A stretch of DNA of 64,000 nt from Marinobacter guineae (GTDB taxonomy: Bacteria > Pseudomonadota > Gammaproteobacteria > Pseudomonadales > Oleiphilaceae), in NCBI RefSeq assembly GCF_002744735.1, contig NZ_KZ319341.1, positions 483,848 through 547,847 of the forward strand, given 5' to 3'. Under the pieces are notes generated by a model. That model was not told the origin of the DNA and made no database searches. It saw only the letters and a list, made by a program, of their open reading frames with translations. Positions within the stretch are counted from its first letter, which is position 1. Every line of letters begins with the position of its first letter. The position numbers were made by a program, and so were the translations under genes. Below are positions 36,831 through 45,709 of this stretch, piece after piece.

Positions 36831-37568
36831 TCAGGCTTCCTTTACGAACAGGTAGCCTTTACTGCGAACGGTCTTGATGCGCCGTGGATGGATAGGATCA
36901 TCACCGATTTTGGGGCGAATCCGAGACACCCTCACATCAATCGACCGATCCTGGCCGTCGTACTCGATACCGCGCAGGGCGGTAAAGATTTCTTCCCGAC
37001 TCAGGACCCGGCCCGCATTACTGGCGAGCAGCCAAAGCAGGTCGAATTCGGCGCTGGTCAGGTCGATACTCTCTTCACTCAACCAGGCTTCCCGCATGGA
37101 GCGATCGACAACCAGGTCATTGAACTGAAGACGAACCGGCTCTTCGCCGCTCGATTCATCAGCTGAGCTCTGCGCCGTCTCGGTTACCCGTCTCAGCATG
37201 GCGCGGATACGGGCGAGCAAAACCCTGGGTTTGACCGGTTTGCCGATGTAATCGTCTGCGCCCATTTCCAGACCAAGAACCTGATCCAGATCATCCGTAC
37301 GAGCTGTCAGCATGATGATAGGGCCGGAATAGAAGGGACGGACCCGGCGACAGATGGACAGGCCATCTTCCCCCGGTAACATCAGGTCCAGCACCACCAG
37401 GTCGGGCTGTTCGTTGCGGATCCGCTCTACCGCAGGGCCACCATGAGTTTCCAGGGAGACCGTCAACCCGTTGCTTTCAAGATACTCACGGGTTAACTCA
37501 GCCAACCGCTCGTCGTCCTCGACAATCAGAATTCGCCAACTTTCGTTTGTCTGTTCCACGCCATCCAT
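36831..37568 (-). CDS. OmpR/PhoB-family response regulator (RstA-like)
   Basis: DNA-binding regulator of 245 residues: receiver domain with phospho-acceptor Asp in VVLDLMLPGEDG (about residue 57) and conserved Lys in GADDYIGKPVKP, then a winged-helix domain (about 140-240). Together with the kinase it forms a two-component system divergent from olsB. The 247-bp shared region holds tandem TATACATG repeats near this gene and an 11-bp-period repeat array nearer olsB, either of which could be its target. Confidence 0.9.
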   Translation of the reverse strand: MDGVEQTNESWRILIVEDDERLAELTREYLESNGLTVSLETHGGPAVERIRNEQPDLVVLDLMLPGEDGLSICRRVRPFYSGPIIMLTARTDDLDQVLGLEMGADDYIGKPVKPRVLLARIRAMLRRVTETAQSSADESSGEEPVRLQFNDLVVDRSMREAWLSEESIDLTSAEFDLLWLLASNAGRVLSREEIFTALRGIEYDGQDRSIDVRVSRIRPKIGDDPIHPRRIKTVRSKGYLFVKEA

Positions 37569-37626
37569 CTCTGGTTTTGTTATTCCGGTTTCAGGTCATT
37601 CTGTGTACCTGACAATACAGGCAACC

Positions 37627-37728: not shown

Positions 37729-37780
37729 TGTCATAGACACGTCACCTCGTGGTCACTGATGTGTCACACCGGCTTCATAG
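37729..37780 (+). promoter_or_regulatory. Pho-box-like array of four 11-bp repeats upstream of olsB
   Basis: GTCAT/GTCAC occurs at 37730, 37741, 37752 and 37763, exactly 11 bp apart; the outer copies are TGTCAT and TGTCAC. The PhoB box is built of CTGTCAT-N4 direct repeats with an 11-bp period. TTCATAG (37774-37780) follows at the distance expected for a -10 element, about 36 bp above the olsB ATG. The adjacent OmpR/PhoB-family regulator is an alternative binder. Confidence 0.65.
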
Positions 37781-37815: not shown

Positions 37816-38577
37816 ATGACCACACAAACCGCGAAAGCCCGCCGCAGTGCCCGTCGGCTGAAAACCGACATGACCCGGTGCCCCGATCTGGTAGAAGCGG
37901 CGCAGCGACTGCGCTATCGGGTATTCTCGGAAGAGTATGGAAGTGACCTGGGCGCGGAAACGCCGGGAATCGATAAAGACGCGTTCGACACTGTGTGCGA
38001 CCACCTCATTGTGACAGATCTGGATTCCGGCGAACTGGTGGCAACTACCCGGATCCTGCACCAGGCAAACACCCGGGCCGCTGGCGGCTTTTACTCGGCG
38101 GGCGAGTTCGACCTGAGCGCCCTGGAAAAACTGCCGGGGACGATCGCCGAACTGGGACGCACCTGTGTCCATCCGGACTACCGTAACGGCGCTACCATCA
38201 GCCTGCTCTGGTCCGCCGTCGCCGAATATCTGGTTGAACGGGATGTGGACTACATGATCGGCTGCGCCAGCATCGGTATGTCCGACGGCGGCCTGAAAGC
38301 CTGGCGCATTGCCCGCCATCTCCAGAAGGAATACCTGGCCGATCCGGAGTTTCTGGTCAAACCGCTCCGGGAGCTACCGCACCTGACCCACACCCGGGAC
38401 AATGACCGCCCGGTTGACGTACCTGCCCTTATTCGCGCTTACATGCGCCTGGGTGCGAGAGTCTGCGGTGAACCTTGCTGGGATCCGGAATTTCGTTGTG
38501 CTGACCTTCTGGTTGTGCTGGAAGTCAGCAAACTGGCCGGCCGCTACAGCCGGCACTTCATGCGCACTGCATCCTGA
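37816..38577 (+). CDS. olsB: L-ornithine N-alpha-acyltransferase OlsB
   Basis: Transfers a 3-hydroxyacyl chain from acyl-ACP to ornithine to give lyso-ornithine lipid, the first step of phosphorus-free ornithine lipid synthesis. The 253-residue protein is a GNAT-like acyltransferase with the OlsB/hemolysin-like pattern LRYRVFSEEYGSD near the N-terminus and ELGRTCVHPDYRNGATISLLW in the middle. ATG 37816 is chosen because upstream sequence is not conserved-looking. It is followed 26 bp later by olsA and preceded by a Pho-box-like array. Confidence 0.88.
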   Translation: MTTQTAKARRSARRLKTDMTRCPDLVEAAQRLRYRVFSEEYGSDLGAETPGIDKDAFDTVCDHLIVTDLDSGELVATTRILHQANTRAAGGFYSAGEFDLSALEKLPGTIAELGRTCVHPDYRNGATISLLWSAVAEYLVERDVDYMIGCASIGMSDGGLKAWRIARHLQKEYLADPEFLVKPLRELPHLTHTRDNDRPVDVPALIRAYMRLGARVCGEPCWDPEFRCADLLVVLEVSKLAGRYSRHFMRTAS

Positions 38578-38603: not shown

Positions 38604-39464
38604 ATGGGCTGGATTCGACTGGGCGGCCGCCTCACCAGTTTTGTTGCTTTTCTGGCAGCGACCACGATGCTGGCTGCGGGATTGCGACTCACTGAAATGG
38701 TCACCGGGAAAACCATCGACCGGACGCCCTGGGCAGGATTCTGCTTCCGGTGGGCTTGTCGCTGCCTGGGATTGGACATACACCAGCACGGCTCACCCTC
38801 AGACAGCACCGTTCTGTTTGTCAGCAATCACATAAGCTGGTCGGATATTCCAATTCTGGGCAGCCTGGCACAGGTCCGGTTCCTGTCCAAAGCGGAGGTT
38901 GGTCAGTGGCCGTTGATCGGCTGGCTCGCCAGACAGGCGGGCACGCTCTTCATCAAGCGTGGCGGTGGTCAGGCCAGGCGGGTCCGCAACCAGATCATGG
39001 AAAACCTGGGAGCGGGAGAGTCCGTTCTGGTTTTCCCGGAAGGCACAACCAGTGCCGGGCTGACCGTACTGCCTTTCCACGGGCTACTGCTGAAAGCCGG
39101 CCCGGACAGCAATACACCCGTTCAGCCAGTCACCATCAGTTACCGTCGCGCGGGGCGGCCGGACCATCTGGCCCCGTTCATTGGTGACGATGAATTTCAC
39201 ACACACCTGCTGAGAATGCTCCGTCAGCCGTCGGCGAGGGTCGACATTATTTTCCATAGCCCCATAAGTCCGGCGGTTGAAACCGGAGCCGGCGATCTTA
39301 CCCGCCAGCTCCGTGAGCTGATACTGGACGGACTCGCCCGCATCCACAGGGGCGAACTGGACCAGGGCGAAGACTGCCCAATCAGAACAACGGGCGACCC
39401 TGAGCCACCTCGTCTTCCGTCGCTTCACGGCGGCCGACAATCTCCAGATCAAAGTACAGGGTAA
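38604..39464 (+). CDS. olsA: Lyso-ornithine lipid O-acyltransferase OlsA (PlsC family)
   Basis: Second step of ornithine lipid synthesis: O-acylation of lyso-ornithine lipid. A PlsC-family enzyme of 286 residues with the HX4D motif in SNHISWSDIP (about residues 72-81), FIKRGGGQARR, and FPEGTTSAG (about 146-154); an N-terminal hydrophobic segment anchors it. By sequence alone it could be a general 1-acylglycerol-3-phosphate acyltransferase; pairing with olsB makes OlsA likely. GGGAGG precedes the ATG. Its 3' end overlaps the convergent FKBP gene by 83 bp. Confidence 0.85.
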   Translation: MGWIRLGGRLTSFVAFLAATTMLAAGLRLTEMVTGKTIDRTPWAGFCFRWACRCLGLDIHQHGSPSDSTVLFVSNHISWSDIPILGSLAQVRFLSKAEVGQWPLIGWLARQAGTLFIKRGGGQARRVRNQIMENLGAGESVLVFPEGTTSAGLTVLPFHGLLLKAGPDSNTPVQPVTISYRRAGRPDHLAPFIGDDEFHTHLLRMLRQPSARVDIIFHSPISPAVETGAGDLTRQLRELILDGLARIHRGELDQGEDCPIRTTGDPEPPRLPSLHGGRQSPDQSTG

Positions 39465-42786: not shown

Positions 42787-43824
42787 TCAGGGACAGGGGT
42801 AGGTAAATTCCTGGTGAATCGCCTCAATGGCTTCCTGCAACTCAGGGCTCAGGGTGACTCTTGCGGAACCAATGTTCTCACGCAGCTGCGCCATGGACGT
42901 GGCACCGATGATGTTACTGGTGACAAAACTGCGGCTGTTAACATAGGCGAGCGCCATCTGAACTGGCGACAACCCGTGCTCCTTCGCAAGCTCGACATAG
43001 GCCCGGGTGGCCTCCATGCCACGGCTACCGGTGTACCGGCTGAATCGCTCATACAGGGTCATGCGCGCTTTTTCCGGCCACTTGCCGCCCAGGTACTTGC
43101 CAGACAACATGCCAAAGGCCAGCGGCGAATAGGCCAGCAAACCCGCCTGTTCCCGATGGGCAATTTCCGCCATACCTACCTCGAACGAGCGGTTCAGGAG
43201 ATTGTAGGGGTTCTGGATACTGGCCACCCGTGGCCACTCTCTCTCCTGGGCCAGGCGCAGATATTCCATGGTGCCCCAGGGCGTTTCATTGGATAGGCCG
43301 ATATGCCGAACTTTCCCCGCCTTCACCAACCCGTCCAGCGCCTCAAGGGTTTCTTCGATTGGCGTGAAATTCTCATCGGGGTTGTGTTCATAACCGAGCT
43401 TACCGAAAAAGTTCGTGCTGCGGTCAGGCCAGTGCACCTGGTACAGATCGATGTAATCGGTCTGCAGACGCTTCAGGCTGGCGTCGCAGGCTTCGACAAT
43501 ATGGTCGCGGGTCAGGCGCGGACCATTACGGAGGTAGGCCAGCCCATTACCAGGCCCGGCCACCTTGGACGCAATCACCAGATCATCCCGCTGGCCCCTC
43601 CTGGCCAGCCAGTTGCCCAGATAGGTTTCGGTGAGCCCCTGGGTCTCGGCCCTGGGAGGCACCGGGTACATCTCCGCGGCATCAATGAAGTTAATGCCTT
43701 CGGCCACGGCGTAATCCAGTTGCTCGAAGGCCTCCTGCTCGGTGTTCTGCTCGCCCCAGGTCATGGTGCCCAGGCAGATCAGGGTAACGTCGATATCCGT
43801 CTTTCCAAGCTTTCGTGTTTGCAT
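42787..43824 (-). CDS. tas: NADP(H)-dependent aldo-keto reductase (Tas-like)
   Basis: A 345-residue TIM-barrel reductase. The N-terminal KLGKTDIDVTLICLGTMTWGEQNTEQEA is typical of Tas; catalytic Asp and Tyr lie in FIDAAEMYPVP (about residues 50-60), with Lys in VIASKVAGPG and His in YQVHWPDRS. Substrate is unknown; the E. coli member complements tyrosine auxotrophy. GGAGA lies before the ATG. It is divergent from the glycosyltransferase gene and shares its 114-bp upstream region. Confidence 0.9.
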   Translation of the reverse strand: MQTRKLGKTDIDVTLICLGTMTWGEQNTEQEAFEQLDYAVAEGINFIDAAEMYPVPPRAETQGLTETYLGNWLARRGQRDDLVIASKVAGPGNGLAYLRNGPRLTRDHIVEACDASLKRLQTDYIDLYQVHWPDRSTNFFGKLGYEHNPDENFTPIEETLEALDGLVKAGKVRHIGLSNETPWGTMEYLRLAQEREWPRVASIQNPYNLLNRSFEVGMAEIAHREQAGLLAYSPLAFGMLSGKYLGGKWPEKARMTLYERFSRYTGSRGMEATRAYVELAKEHGLSPVQMALAYVNSRSFVTSNIIGATSMAQLRENIGSARVTLSPELQEAIEAIHQEFTYPCP

Positions 43825-43862
43825 ATCGTCTCCGAGTTGGTGCGGTTAACGGGTAAAGGGAA

Positions 43863-43906
43863 TGTCACGGGAGTGTCGCATAACTGTCATGCCAGGTTTC
43901 CATAGT
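43863..43906 (+). promoter_or_regulatory. Pho-box-like array of three 11-bp repeats upstream of the GT4 gene
   Basis: TGTCAC (43863), TGTCGC (43874) and TGTCAT (43885) are spaced exactly 11 bp apart; the third, with its preceding C, is a perfect CTGTCAT. CATAGT (43901-43906) follows as a -10 candidate, about 33 bp above the GTG start. The downstream part (TGTCAT-GCCAGGTTTCCATAG) closely resembles that at olsB (TGTCAC-ACCGGCTTCATAG). Confidence 0.7.
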
Positions 43907-43938
43907 AGAGGCATGTCCGAGGAAACACAGGAAACACC

Positions 43939-45165
43939 GTGACCGTGACCGAGTCCATGCAGGCCAGCCGGCGCCACCAACACATTACCATTGTTTCGGA
44001 GACTTTTCCGCCGGAAATCAATGGCGTGGCAAATACACTCAGGCATCTGTGCCAGGGGCTGATGCAGCGCGGGCACCGGGTAACCGTTATACGGCCACGA
44101 CAGCAACATGAGAGCAAAGGCCATTTCGCCAGCGCTGGCGAGGCCCTGTTTACTCGCGAACATGTGGTGACCGGACTCCCCCTGCCCGGCTACGCGGATC
44201 TGCGCTTCGGGCTCGTGCGCAGCAACCGCCTGAAAAAGCTCTGGACGGCCGACCGCCCCGACGCCGTTTACGTAGCAACCCAGGGCCCGCTGGGTGTGGC
44301 CGCCACATCTGCGGCACGGCAACTGGGCGTCCCGGTAAGCTCAGGATTCCATACCAACTTCCACAGTTACAGCCACTATTACGGTGTTGGCATGCTCGAA
44401 CGGCTGCTGTGTCTATATGGACGGTGGTTCCACAACCGCACTGCCATTACCCTGGTACCAACCCGGCGAATGCAGCAGAAAACCGTTGCCATGGGCATTC
44501 CGGCAACAGGACTTTGGAGCCGGGGTGTCGACTGTCACCGCTTCACCCCCCACAAACGGGATAACGTCCTGCGGGAATCCTGGGGGCTGCAAGCCAACGA
44601 CCGTGCCATCCTTTATGTCGGCCGGCTGGCACCGGAGAAAAACCTTCGCATGGCGGTTGCCTGCTTCGAGCGCATCCGGGGGCTTCATCCCCAGGCAAAA
44701 TTTGTGCTGGTGGGAGATGGCCCCCTTCGGCGGCAACTGGCCGAGCGCCACCCGGATTACATTTTTTGTGGCCCCCAGCGGGGCAACGACCTTGCCCGAC
44801 ACTTCGCCTCCGGCGACCTGTTCCTGTTCCCGAGCAAAACCGACACCTTCGGCAACGTGGTCCTCGAAGCCATGGCCAGTGGCCTTGGCGTGGTTGCTTT
44901 CGATGATGCTGCGGCGGCCGAGCATATCCGGCACGAAGAAAATGGCATGAAGGTGCCTCTGGATCAGGACGAAGCCTATGTTGACAGTGCGCTCCGGCTG
45001 GCCGACCAGCCGACACTGCTGAACCGGGTCCGGGCCCAGGCCCGGCTCGATGCCCTGGAACTGAGCTGGAACTCGCAAATCGAACAGTTTGAACAACTGG
45101 TTTTCAATCAAACCGCACAGGCCGGATACCATGGCATCAACAAGCAAAGCGTCTCGCTTCTTTGA
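43939..45165 (+). CDS. GT4-family glycosyltransferase, probably lipid-directed
   Basis: A 408-residue retaining glycosyltransferase with two Rossmann domains: the acceptor domain opens with ITIVSETFPPEINGVANTLRHL, and the donor domain has YVGRLAPEKNLRMAV and FPSKTDTFGNVVLEAMASG (about residues 297-315). In the latter the usual EX7E pair is DX7E. The family includes diacylglycerol glycosyltransferases and mannosyltransferases. The start is GTG 43939, with AGGA 8 bp upstream. It overlaps the PAP2 gene by 35 bp and has a Pho-box-like promoter, both suggesting glycolipid synthesis during phosphate limitation. Donor sugar and acceptor are not proven. Confidence 0.8.
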   Translation: MTVTESMQASRRHQHITIVSETFPPEINGVANTLRHLCQGLMQRGHRVTVIRPRQQHESKGHFASAGEALFTREHVVTGLPLPGYADLRFGLVRSNRLKKLWTADRPDAVYVATQGPLGVAATSAARQLGVPVSSGFHTNFHSYSHYYGVGMLERLLCLYGRWFHNRTAITLVPTRRMQQKTVAMGIPATGLWSRGVDCHRFTPHKRDNVLRESWGLQANDRAILYVGRLAPEKNLRMAVACFERIRGLHPQAKFVLVGDGPLRRQLAERHPDYIFCGPQRGNDLARHFASGDLFLFPSKTDTFGNVVLEAMASGLGVVAFDDAAAAEHIRHEENGMKVPLDQDEAYVDSALRLADQPTLLNRVRAQARLDALELSWNSQIEQFEQLVFNQTAQAGYHGINKQSVSLL

Positions 45166-45709
45166 ACTGGCAGACCAGCGGGAATACGCATTCTGCCAGT
45201 CCATCAACCGCGCCGTCCGTTTCCGGGCAGCCCTGGGCTACTTCCGGCTGGTCAGCCGCCTTGGAGACGGCTGGTTCTGGTACGCCCTGATTCTGTCCAT
45301 TCCCTTCATCTACCCTATATCGGGACCCGGCCTGGCACTGCTTATGGCATTGACCGGGCTTACCTGCACCCTCGCCTACAAGCTGCTTAAGCGATGGCTG
45401 ATCCGGGAACGCCCGTTTATCTCGTTTCCTGCAATCAATTGCGGCACGCCGCCGCTGGACCGTTACAGCTTCCCCTCCGGCCACACCCTCCACGCAGTCT
45501 GCTTTCAGGTGATGCTGGCCCTGGCAGAACCGGCCCTGGCATTGCTTGTTCTGCCGTTCACCCTCAGCGTTGCCGCTTCGCGAGTGATTCTCGGGCTTCA
45601 CTACCCTAGCGACGTCCTCGCAGGTGCCCTGGTCGGTGGGCTGATGGGCTACGCAGCCATGGTCCTCCTGTACGCAGACTTAAGAATGCTCTTTGGCAGC
45701 CCCTTCTAA
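45131..45709 (+). CDS. PAP2-family membrane phosphatase
   Basis: A 192-residue integral membrane phosphatase. The three PAP2 motifs are complete: KRWLIRERP (about residues 87-95), PSGH (about 114-117) and [12 protein letters not shown] (about 145-156). Family members dephosphorylate phosphatidate, phosphatidylglycerol phosphate or undecaprenyl pyrophosphate. ATG 45131 gives an N-terminus that overlaps the glycosyltransferase gene by 35 bp, so the two are translationally linked. A role releasing diacylglycerol for the glycosyltransferase is the natural inference. Its stop overlaps the convergent dinB stop by 4 bp. Confidence 0.88.

Follow-up and report, generated by a model that had tools for sequence, protein, structure and literature searches.

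The window, by which we mean the whole stretch of 64,000 nucleotides (64 kb) that was analyzed, carries a gene for a GT4-family glycosyltransferase and, on the same strand, a gene for a PAP2-family phosphatase that begins before the glycosyltransferase gene ends. The intergenic region in front of this pair, which is shared with a divergent aldo/keto reductase gene, contains three direct repeats and a -10-like element. The features of this region are as follows, where the fractions refer to the 50 Marinobacter orthologues of the glycosyltransferase described below.

42787-43824, minus strand: aldo/keto reductase gene (NF007912, above cut-off), divergent from the glycosyltransferase gene
43852-43857, plus strand: GGTAAA, degenerate and at most a weak fourth half-site, in register 11 bp 5' of half-site 1 and agreeing with the consensus at 3/6 positions
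43863-43868, plus strand: TGTCAC, candidate Pho half-site 1 (TGTC here in 48/50)
43874-43879, plus strand: TGTCGC, candidate Pho half-site 2, the most degenerate of the three (TGTC in 43/50)
43884-43890, plus strand: CTGTCAT, candidate Pho half-site 3 (TGTCAT at 43885-43890 with C at 43884; TGTC in 49/50)
43901-43906, plus strand: -10-like CATAGT, 4/6 matches to TATAAT (CATAGT with a 10-bp spacer in 46/50)
43929-43932, plus strand: AGGA, likely ribosome-binding site, 6 nt 5' of the GTG start codon
43939-45165, plus strand: Agt2-like GT4-family glycosyltransferase gene, 408 aa (open reading frame, Pfam GT4 domains, 49% identity to Pseudomonas aeruginosa protein P0138, tree)
45131-45709, plus strand: PAP2-family phosphatase gene, 192 aa (PF01569, 74.2 bits)

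A first-pass annotation of this DNA had reported repeats starting at 43863, 43874, and 43885 with an exact 11-bp period, the last being a full CTGTCAT, and they are present just as described. It had also placed CATAGT about 10 bp beyond the last repeat and 33 bp upstream of the glycosyltransferase start codon. The spacer between TGTCAT and CATAGT is exactly 10 bp, and CATAGT does precede the GTG start codon at 43939, although the two are separated by 32 bp rather than 33. On inspection of the sequence, no -35-like hexamer is present 16-18 bp 5' of CATAGT (at most 2/6 matches to TTGACA), which together with the 10-bp spacer is consistent with an activator-dependent promoter. A small ATG-initiated frame occupies 43912-43938, starting approximately where transcription would be expected to start. 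Its ATG is kept in many orthologues, and its frame relative to the GTG start is variable.

The rarity of the array was assessed with a match score from 0 to 18 that measures the fit to TGTCAY at three 11-bp steps. On both strands of the window, the glycosyltransferase array is the single match scoring 17, and the only matches scoring 16 are two overlapping ones 5' of olsB, at 37729 and 37740. In the 4.46-Mb genome, the pattern TGTCRY-N5-TGTCRY-N5-TGTCRY with up to two mismatches has seven matches, and its reversed control has three. The only exact match genome-wide is the glycosyltransferase promoter; the other six each have two mismatches. When 61 Marinobacter genomes were searched for exact TGTCAY-N5-TGTCNY-N5-TGTCAY, we found 47 matches in 43 genomes and none for the reversed control. 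A script check placed 40 of these 47 less than 200 bp 5' of the glycosyltransferase gene on the same strand and seven elsewhere (G012:C23:692882, G048:C1:46637, G033:C345:9711, G050:C3:61183, G050:C26:148048, G025:C107:8297, and G060:C2:160315). Among the 11 genomes that lack an intact orthologue, G060 is the only one with an exact triple, and it lies elsewhere in the genome. Two half-sites alone were rejected as a search pattern because the background is too high (102 matches genome-wide with up to two mismatches versus 66 in the control), and a two-half-site match by itself is weak evidence.

A lack of conservation upstream of orthologues had been named beforehand as an outcome that would refute the Pho-box reading, and the opposite was found. 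Orthologues of the glycosyltransferase were found in 50 of the 61 Marinobacter genomes, a count that includes two genes split between reading frames (in G036 and G055) and leaves out a fragment with a stop in G045. All 50 keep the array with a score of at least 15 (40 score 17, eight score 16, and two score 15), and there are 39 different box sequences among them. CATAGT sits at exactly 10 bp in 46 of the 50. Its position is taken by CACACT in L007 and by CATACT in L044, and two further loci, L043 and L045, carry four TGTC repeats in tandem, the last being TGTCAT followed at 10 bp by CACAGT; in these two loci the script scored the upstream three of the four repeats. The first of these four repeats has the same register as the degenerate GGTAAA at 43852. 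Several relatives, such as L035 and L046-L048, have a degenerate middle half-site. In a named Marinobacter locus, L213, a direct scan found the array with a score of 16 and CATAGT 10 bp on; the score of 10 for this locus in the alignment-based scan is an artefact of partial alignment.

The first-pass annotation interpreted the arrangement as the layout of a PhoB binding site. This interpretation gains good support at the sequence level from the conserved repeats, from the PhoB protein encoded in the genome (357 bits versus a curated cut-off of 296.2), and from similar repeats before phoB, pstS, plcP, and olsBA. Upstream of phoB lies a two-repeat box, CTGTCATATACTTGTAAC, and the gene for a PstS-type protein (PF12849) likewise has a two-repeat box, CTGTAACAAAGTTGTCAC. 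Of the 10 phoB upstream regions that served as a positive control, only 3 reached p<0.01 with the triple score, because these regions carry two half-sites rather than three; the shuffle controls for all upstream scores preserve base composition and not dinucleotides. A longer array is found before a gene on a different contig from the glycosyltransferase.

G000:C2:584773-585712 (L098:6774-7713): PlcP-like metallophosphoesterase gene, preceded by a four-repeat Pho-like array (AGTCAC, TGTCTC, TGTCAT, and CGTCAC at 11-bp steps)

The 30 plcP upstream regions taken from the 32 Marinobacter genomes with PlcP have scores of 14-17 out of 18, each with p<0.01 versus shuffles, and 29 of them score at least 15. 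One of these 30 loci, L254, is in the wrong register and is uninformative, though counted. In the window itself, a second Pho-like array precedes an apparent ornithine-lipid operon, which lies 6 kb away from the glycosyltransferase-PAP2 pair.

36834-37574, minus strand: RstA-like response regulator gene (263.9 bits, cut-off 330), divergent from olsBA
37729-37767, plus strand: second Pho-like array (TGTCAT, CGTCAC, GGTCAC, and TGTCAC at 11-bp steps), preceding olsB
37816-38577, plus strand: olsB-like ornithine N-acyltransferase gene (best NCBIfam matches OlsB, below cut-offs; PF13444)
38604-39464, plus strand: olsA-like lyso-ornithine lipid acyltransferase gene (best matches OlsA, below cut-off; PF01553)

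Nine stretches from relatives were examined for the olsB array, and it is present in all seven in which olsB was matched. The olsB promoter has CATAGG 8 bp after the array and does not have the 10-bp spacer of the glycosyltransferase type. Taken together, the two arrays suggest that the window contains two probable phosphorus-sparing lipid operons.

Several other explanations for the repeats can be weighed against control of the glycosyltransferase by PhoB. Chance could be considered given how frequent two-half-site matches are, but the single exact triple in the genome, the 47 versus 0 matches over 61 genomes with 40 before one gene, and above all the conservation in orthologues refute it, and its probability is negligible. 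Tandem half-sites about 11 bp apart are common among OmpR-family regulators, and the repeats could thus be bound by another member of the OmpR/PhoB family, such as the RstA-like protein, in which case the operon would answer a different signal. The RstA-like gene is transcribed divergently from olsBA, with 6 kb between it and the glycosyltransferase gene. In at least nine relatives, coordinates put an OmpR-family gene, whether RstA-like or not, some 5-7 kb away from that of the glycosyltransferase. Against this, PhoB is encoded with a score above its curated cut-off, two-repeat forms stand before phoB and pstS, and arrays of three to four repeats stand before plcP on another contig. The half-site also fits the Escherichia coli PhoB consensus, CTGTCATNNNNCTGTCAT (PMC8528852 and PMC11828411). 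We therefore consider a different regulator improbable. The box could instead mainly serve the divergent aldo/keto reductase, or both genes, since the reductase start is 38 bp from half-site 1 and a divergent reductase is present at 47 of the 50 loci of the genus. However, the -10-like element with its 10-bp spacing faces the glycosyltransferase, and no reductase lies within the examined flanks of four f38 orthologues (L122, L124, L127, and L130) that have upstream repeats scoring 15-17. Control mainly of the reductase, or of both genes, thus appears very improbable.

The glycosyltransferase had been called uncharacterized in the first-pass annotation, a description that is not fully accurate. 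The protein is 49% identical to P0138 of P. aeruginosa, and in two Pseudomonas-group genomes the gene for a relative of P0138 follows a CysZ gene at a distance of about 0.1 kb. In the genome nearest to P. aeruginosa (97% identity to P0138), CysZ lies 5.6 kb upstream of the P0138 relative. In P. aeruginosa, PA0843 is plcR, PA0844 is plcH, and PA0845 is cerN (PMC5150637), and PA0846 is cysZ (PMC10687435), so the proximity of CysZ to the P0138 relatives fits the PA0842 neighborhood. The product of PA0842, Agt2, uses UDP-glucuronate to form glucuronosyl-diacylglycerol, and the gene carries a Pho box and is upregulated when phosphate is depleted (PMC8528852). From identity, synteny, and the tree, the Marinobacter glycosyltransferase is probably an orthologue of Agt2, where the equation of P0138 with PA0842 is based on synteny. 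Agt1 is disfavored as its counterpart: the Agt1-like proteins adjoining plcP in four Pseudomonas-group loci (L223-L226) are 29-32% identical to it and lie apart in the tree. The branch that separates the glycosyltransferase from Agt1 has moderate support (87/85) with long branches, and the deeper placement is unsure. Among the best 25 of 34 NCBIfam models, the glycosyltransferase is far below the cut-off in every case. A GT4 paralogue, recognized by its Pfam GT4 domains, is encoded elsewhere in this genome at G000:C1:1391561.

PAP2 phosphatases are characterized by the signature motifs K-x6-RP, PSGH, and SR-x5-H-x3-D, all of which are intact in the protein encoded here. A PAP2 gene follows the glycosyltransferase gene on the same strand at 49 of the 50 loci of the genus, each with these motifs, and L045 is the one without it. 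The motifs are also present at 29 of 44 loci from other genera, and the other 15 have no adjacent PAP2 gene. The PlcP-like protein is 44-46% identical to six PlcP-like proteins of the Pseudomonas family, and its NCBIfam and Pfam matches are limited to weak metallophosphoesterase/LpxH hits. An Agt1-like gene adjoins plcP in four of these Pseudomonas-family loci (L223-L226), and none was annotated by the script in L227 and L228. No glycosyltransferase gene adjoins plcP in the present genome, where a DUF547-like open reading frame (named by eye) and others lie downstream.

We then compared the distributions of the glycosyltransferase, PAP2, and PlcP. Within Marinobacter, where all PlcP candidates were scored, PlcP is present in 31 of 50 genomes with the glycosyltransferase versus 1 of the 11 that lack an intact copy (Fisher p = 0.0019, a value inflated by kinship); the single exception, G059, is an 83%-complete assembly. 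In one genome, G047, the glycosyltransferase is present and neither PAP2 nor PlcP was found. A search of 341 genomes of the order, Marinobacter included, recovered a relative of the glycosyltransferase at an E value of 1e-50 in 46 genomes outside the genus. Two of these, from family f34, were excluded because their 29% identical relative is a doubtful orthologue; neither partner was found in either genome. For the remaining 44, PlcP absence was judged from the seven best first-look candidates per genome. An adjacent PAP2 gene with no PlcP match occurs in 24 genomes (10 from f38, 11 from f36, and 3 from f35), PlcP with no adjacent PAP2 gene occurs in 15 (11 from f20, the Pseudomonas family, and 4 from f9), five have both, and none has neither. 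This pattern, which is also inflated by kinship, is at the level of families and therefore represents a small number of independent events. It is consistent with PAP2 and PlcP being alternative sources of diacylglycerol for one glycosyltransferase. Of the four f9 genomes, three have plcP and the glycosyltransferase relative on one strand, separated by 3.5-3.6 kb, and in the fourth the two are on different contigs.

Upstream arrays are weaker outside Marinobacter, with scores of 12-17, and they fall short of significance in G309 (p = 0.24) and G285 (p = 0.077). No convincing array was found in G095, G232, and G310, where the best match extends into the start of the gene. Among named loci from other classes and phyla with relatives of at most 48% identity, most have no significant array and many have no PAP2 gene. 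Judging by the names of its matches, f38 looks like the Thalassolituus/Oceanobacter group. All 10 f38 genomes have two glycosyltransferase matches each, separated by about 6-13 kb in those genomes for which both positions are given, and in G312 (L237 and L238) PAP2 follows only the first of the two. In one f36 genome (G131, L232), the glycosyltransferase-PAP2 pair is near an open reading frame that by eye resembles a 5'-nucleotidase, another kind of phosphate-scavenging gene.

From these observations, we think it quite probable that the repeats serve as a PhoB operator (Pho box) that switches on an Agt2-type glycosyltransferase-PAP2 operon for lipid remodeling at low phosphate. Phosphorylated PhoB would bind the three or four 11-bp half-sites and thereby replace the -35 element before CATAGT. 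When phosphate is scarce, the two overlapping genes would be turned on, presumably as a single transcript. The glycosyltransferase would then transfer a sugar, probably glucuronate or glucose, from a UDP-sugar onto diacylglycerol, and the resulting phosphorus-free glycolipid would take the place of a phospholipid. PAP2 probably supplies diacylglycerol by removing the phosphate from phosphatidate or a comparable lipid phosphate, and in this genome it would act alongside the Pho-boxed PlcP and the ornithine-lipid operon as a lipid-remodeling module.

The operon could also be controlled by phosphate and yet yield something other than a diacylglycerol glycolipid, such as a surface polysaccharide or one linked to a polyprenyl carrier, in which case PAP2 would recycle undecaprenyl diphosphate. 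The acceptors of GT4 enzymes are diverse, the best NCBIfam match of the glycosyltransferase is a phosphatidylglycerol glycosyltransferase (133.5 bits, cut-off 480), and PAP2 is weakly similar to the undecaprenyl-diphosphatase SepP and to PgpB (44.6 and 37.1 bits, below cut-offs). On the other hand, the 49% identity to probable Agt2, the moderately supported tree that sets both apart from Agt1, the co-occurrence with PlcP, the additional Pho-boxed lipid genes in the genome, and neighboring open reading frames that by eye form no polysaccharide cluster all argue that such a product is unlikely. Membrane lipid remodeling is the likely role of the operon.

Pho boxes, Agt enzymes, PlcP, and ols genes behind a Pho box have all been described before. 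What is new is the PAP2 phosphatase gene that overlaps the glycosyltransferase gene. No account of this operon appears in the titles or abstract openings of the open-access papers listed for Marinobacter or PAP2 with phosphate-starvation lipids. The point of most interest is the supply of diacylglycerol, for which PAP2 may be a PlcP-independent source. In such a second route, a Pho-controlled PAP2 would divert newly made phosphatidate to diacylglycerol and Agt2 would glycosylate it, a proposal for which we judge the prospects to be evenly balanced. If correct, this route would serve bacteria with no PlcP match, which include f38, f36, f35, and many Marinobacter. PlcP has been used as a marker of phosphorus-saving lipid remodeling in marine bacteria and metagenomes (PMC4796936). 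Should PAP2 and Agt2 work without PlcP, the trait would be more widespread than this marker indicates, and PlcP-based surveys of marine lipid remodeling would overlook these same groups. The question of a second diacylglycerol source also arises in P. aeruginosa, where a plcP mutant retains a little glucuronosyl-diacylglycerol (PMC8528852); the Pseudomonas loci that we examined have no adjacent PAP2 gene. The operon is amenable to gene deletion in culturable Marinobacter.

Comparison with described systems places these features in context. Like the P. aeruginosa PlcP-Agt1/Agt2 system (PA3219, PA3218, and PA0842), as far as the relevant parts of PMC8528852 describe it, the Marinobacter system has a probable Agt2 orthologue, PlcP, and Pho boxes in one genome. 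In contrast to that system, the glycosyltransferase gene overlaps a PAP2 gene, plcP has no adjacent Agt1 gene, and many relatives of the system have no PlcP match. The PlcP-Agt operons of marine Alphaproteobacteria and SAR11 similarly combine Pho-boxed genes for phosphorus-free lipids with a glycosyltransferase acting on diacylglycerol, but there the diacylglycerol comes from PlcP; no PAP2 partner is mentioned in the parts of that report considered here, and Marinobacter is not named in its main text (PMC4796936). The box shares with those of E. coli the 11-bp direct repeats and a fixed distance to the core promoter, as represented in the corresponding parts of PMC8528852 and PMC11828411 (consensus) and PMC10294691 (ChIP-seq), and it differs in having three half-sites plus a degenerate fourth, with TGTCGC in the middle. 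Acinetobacter baumannii also has olsB, for aminolipid synthesis, behind a Pho box; its olsA is elsewhere and is not phosphate regulated in the account given there (PMC11828411), whereas olsB and olsA are adjacent in Marinobacter. Finally, GTGTCACCGCTCTGTCAC is present at G000:C3:448559-448576 (L063 and L101) before an open reading frame that by eye resembles a fatty-acyl-CoA reductase, and it could be a further Pho box on storage-lipid genes.
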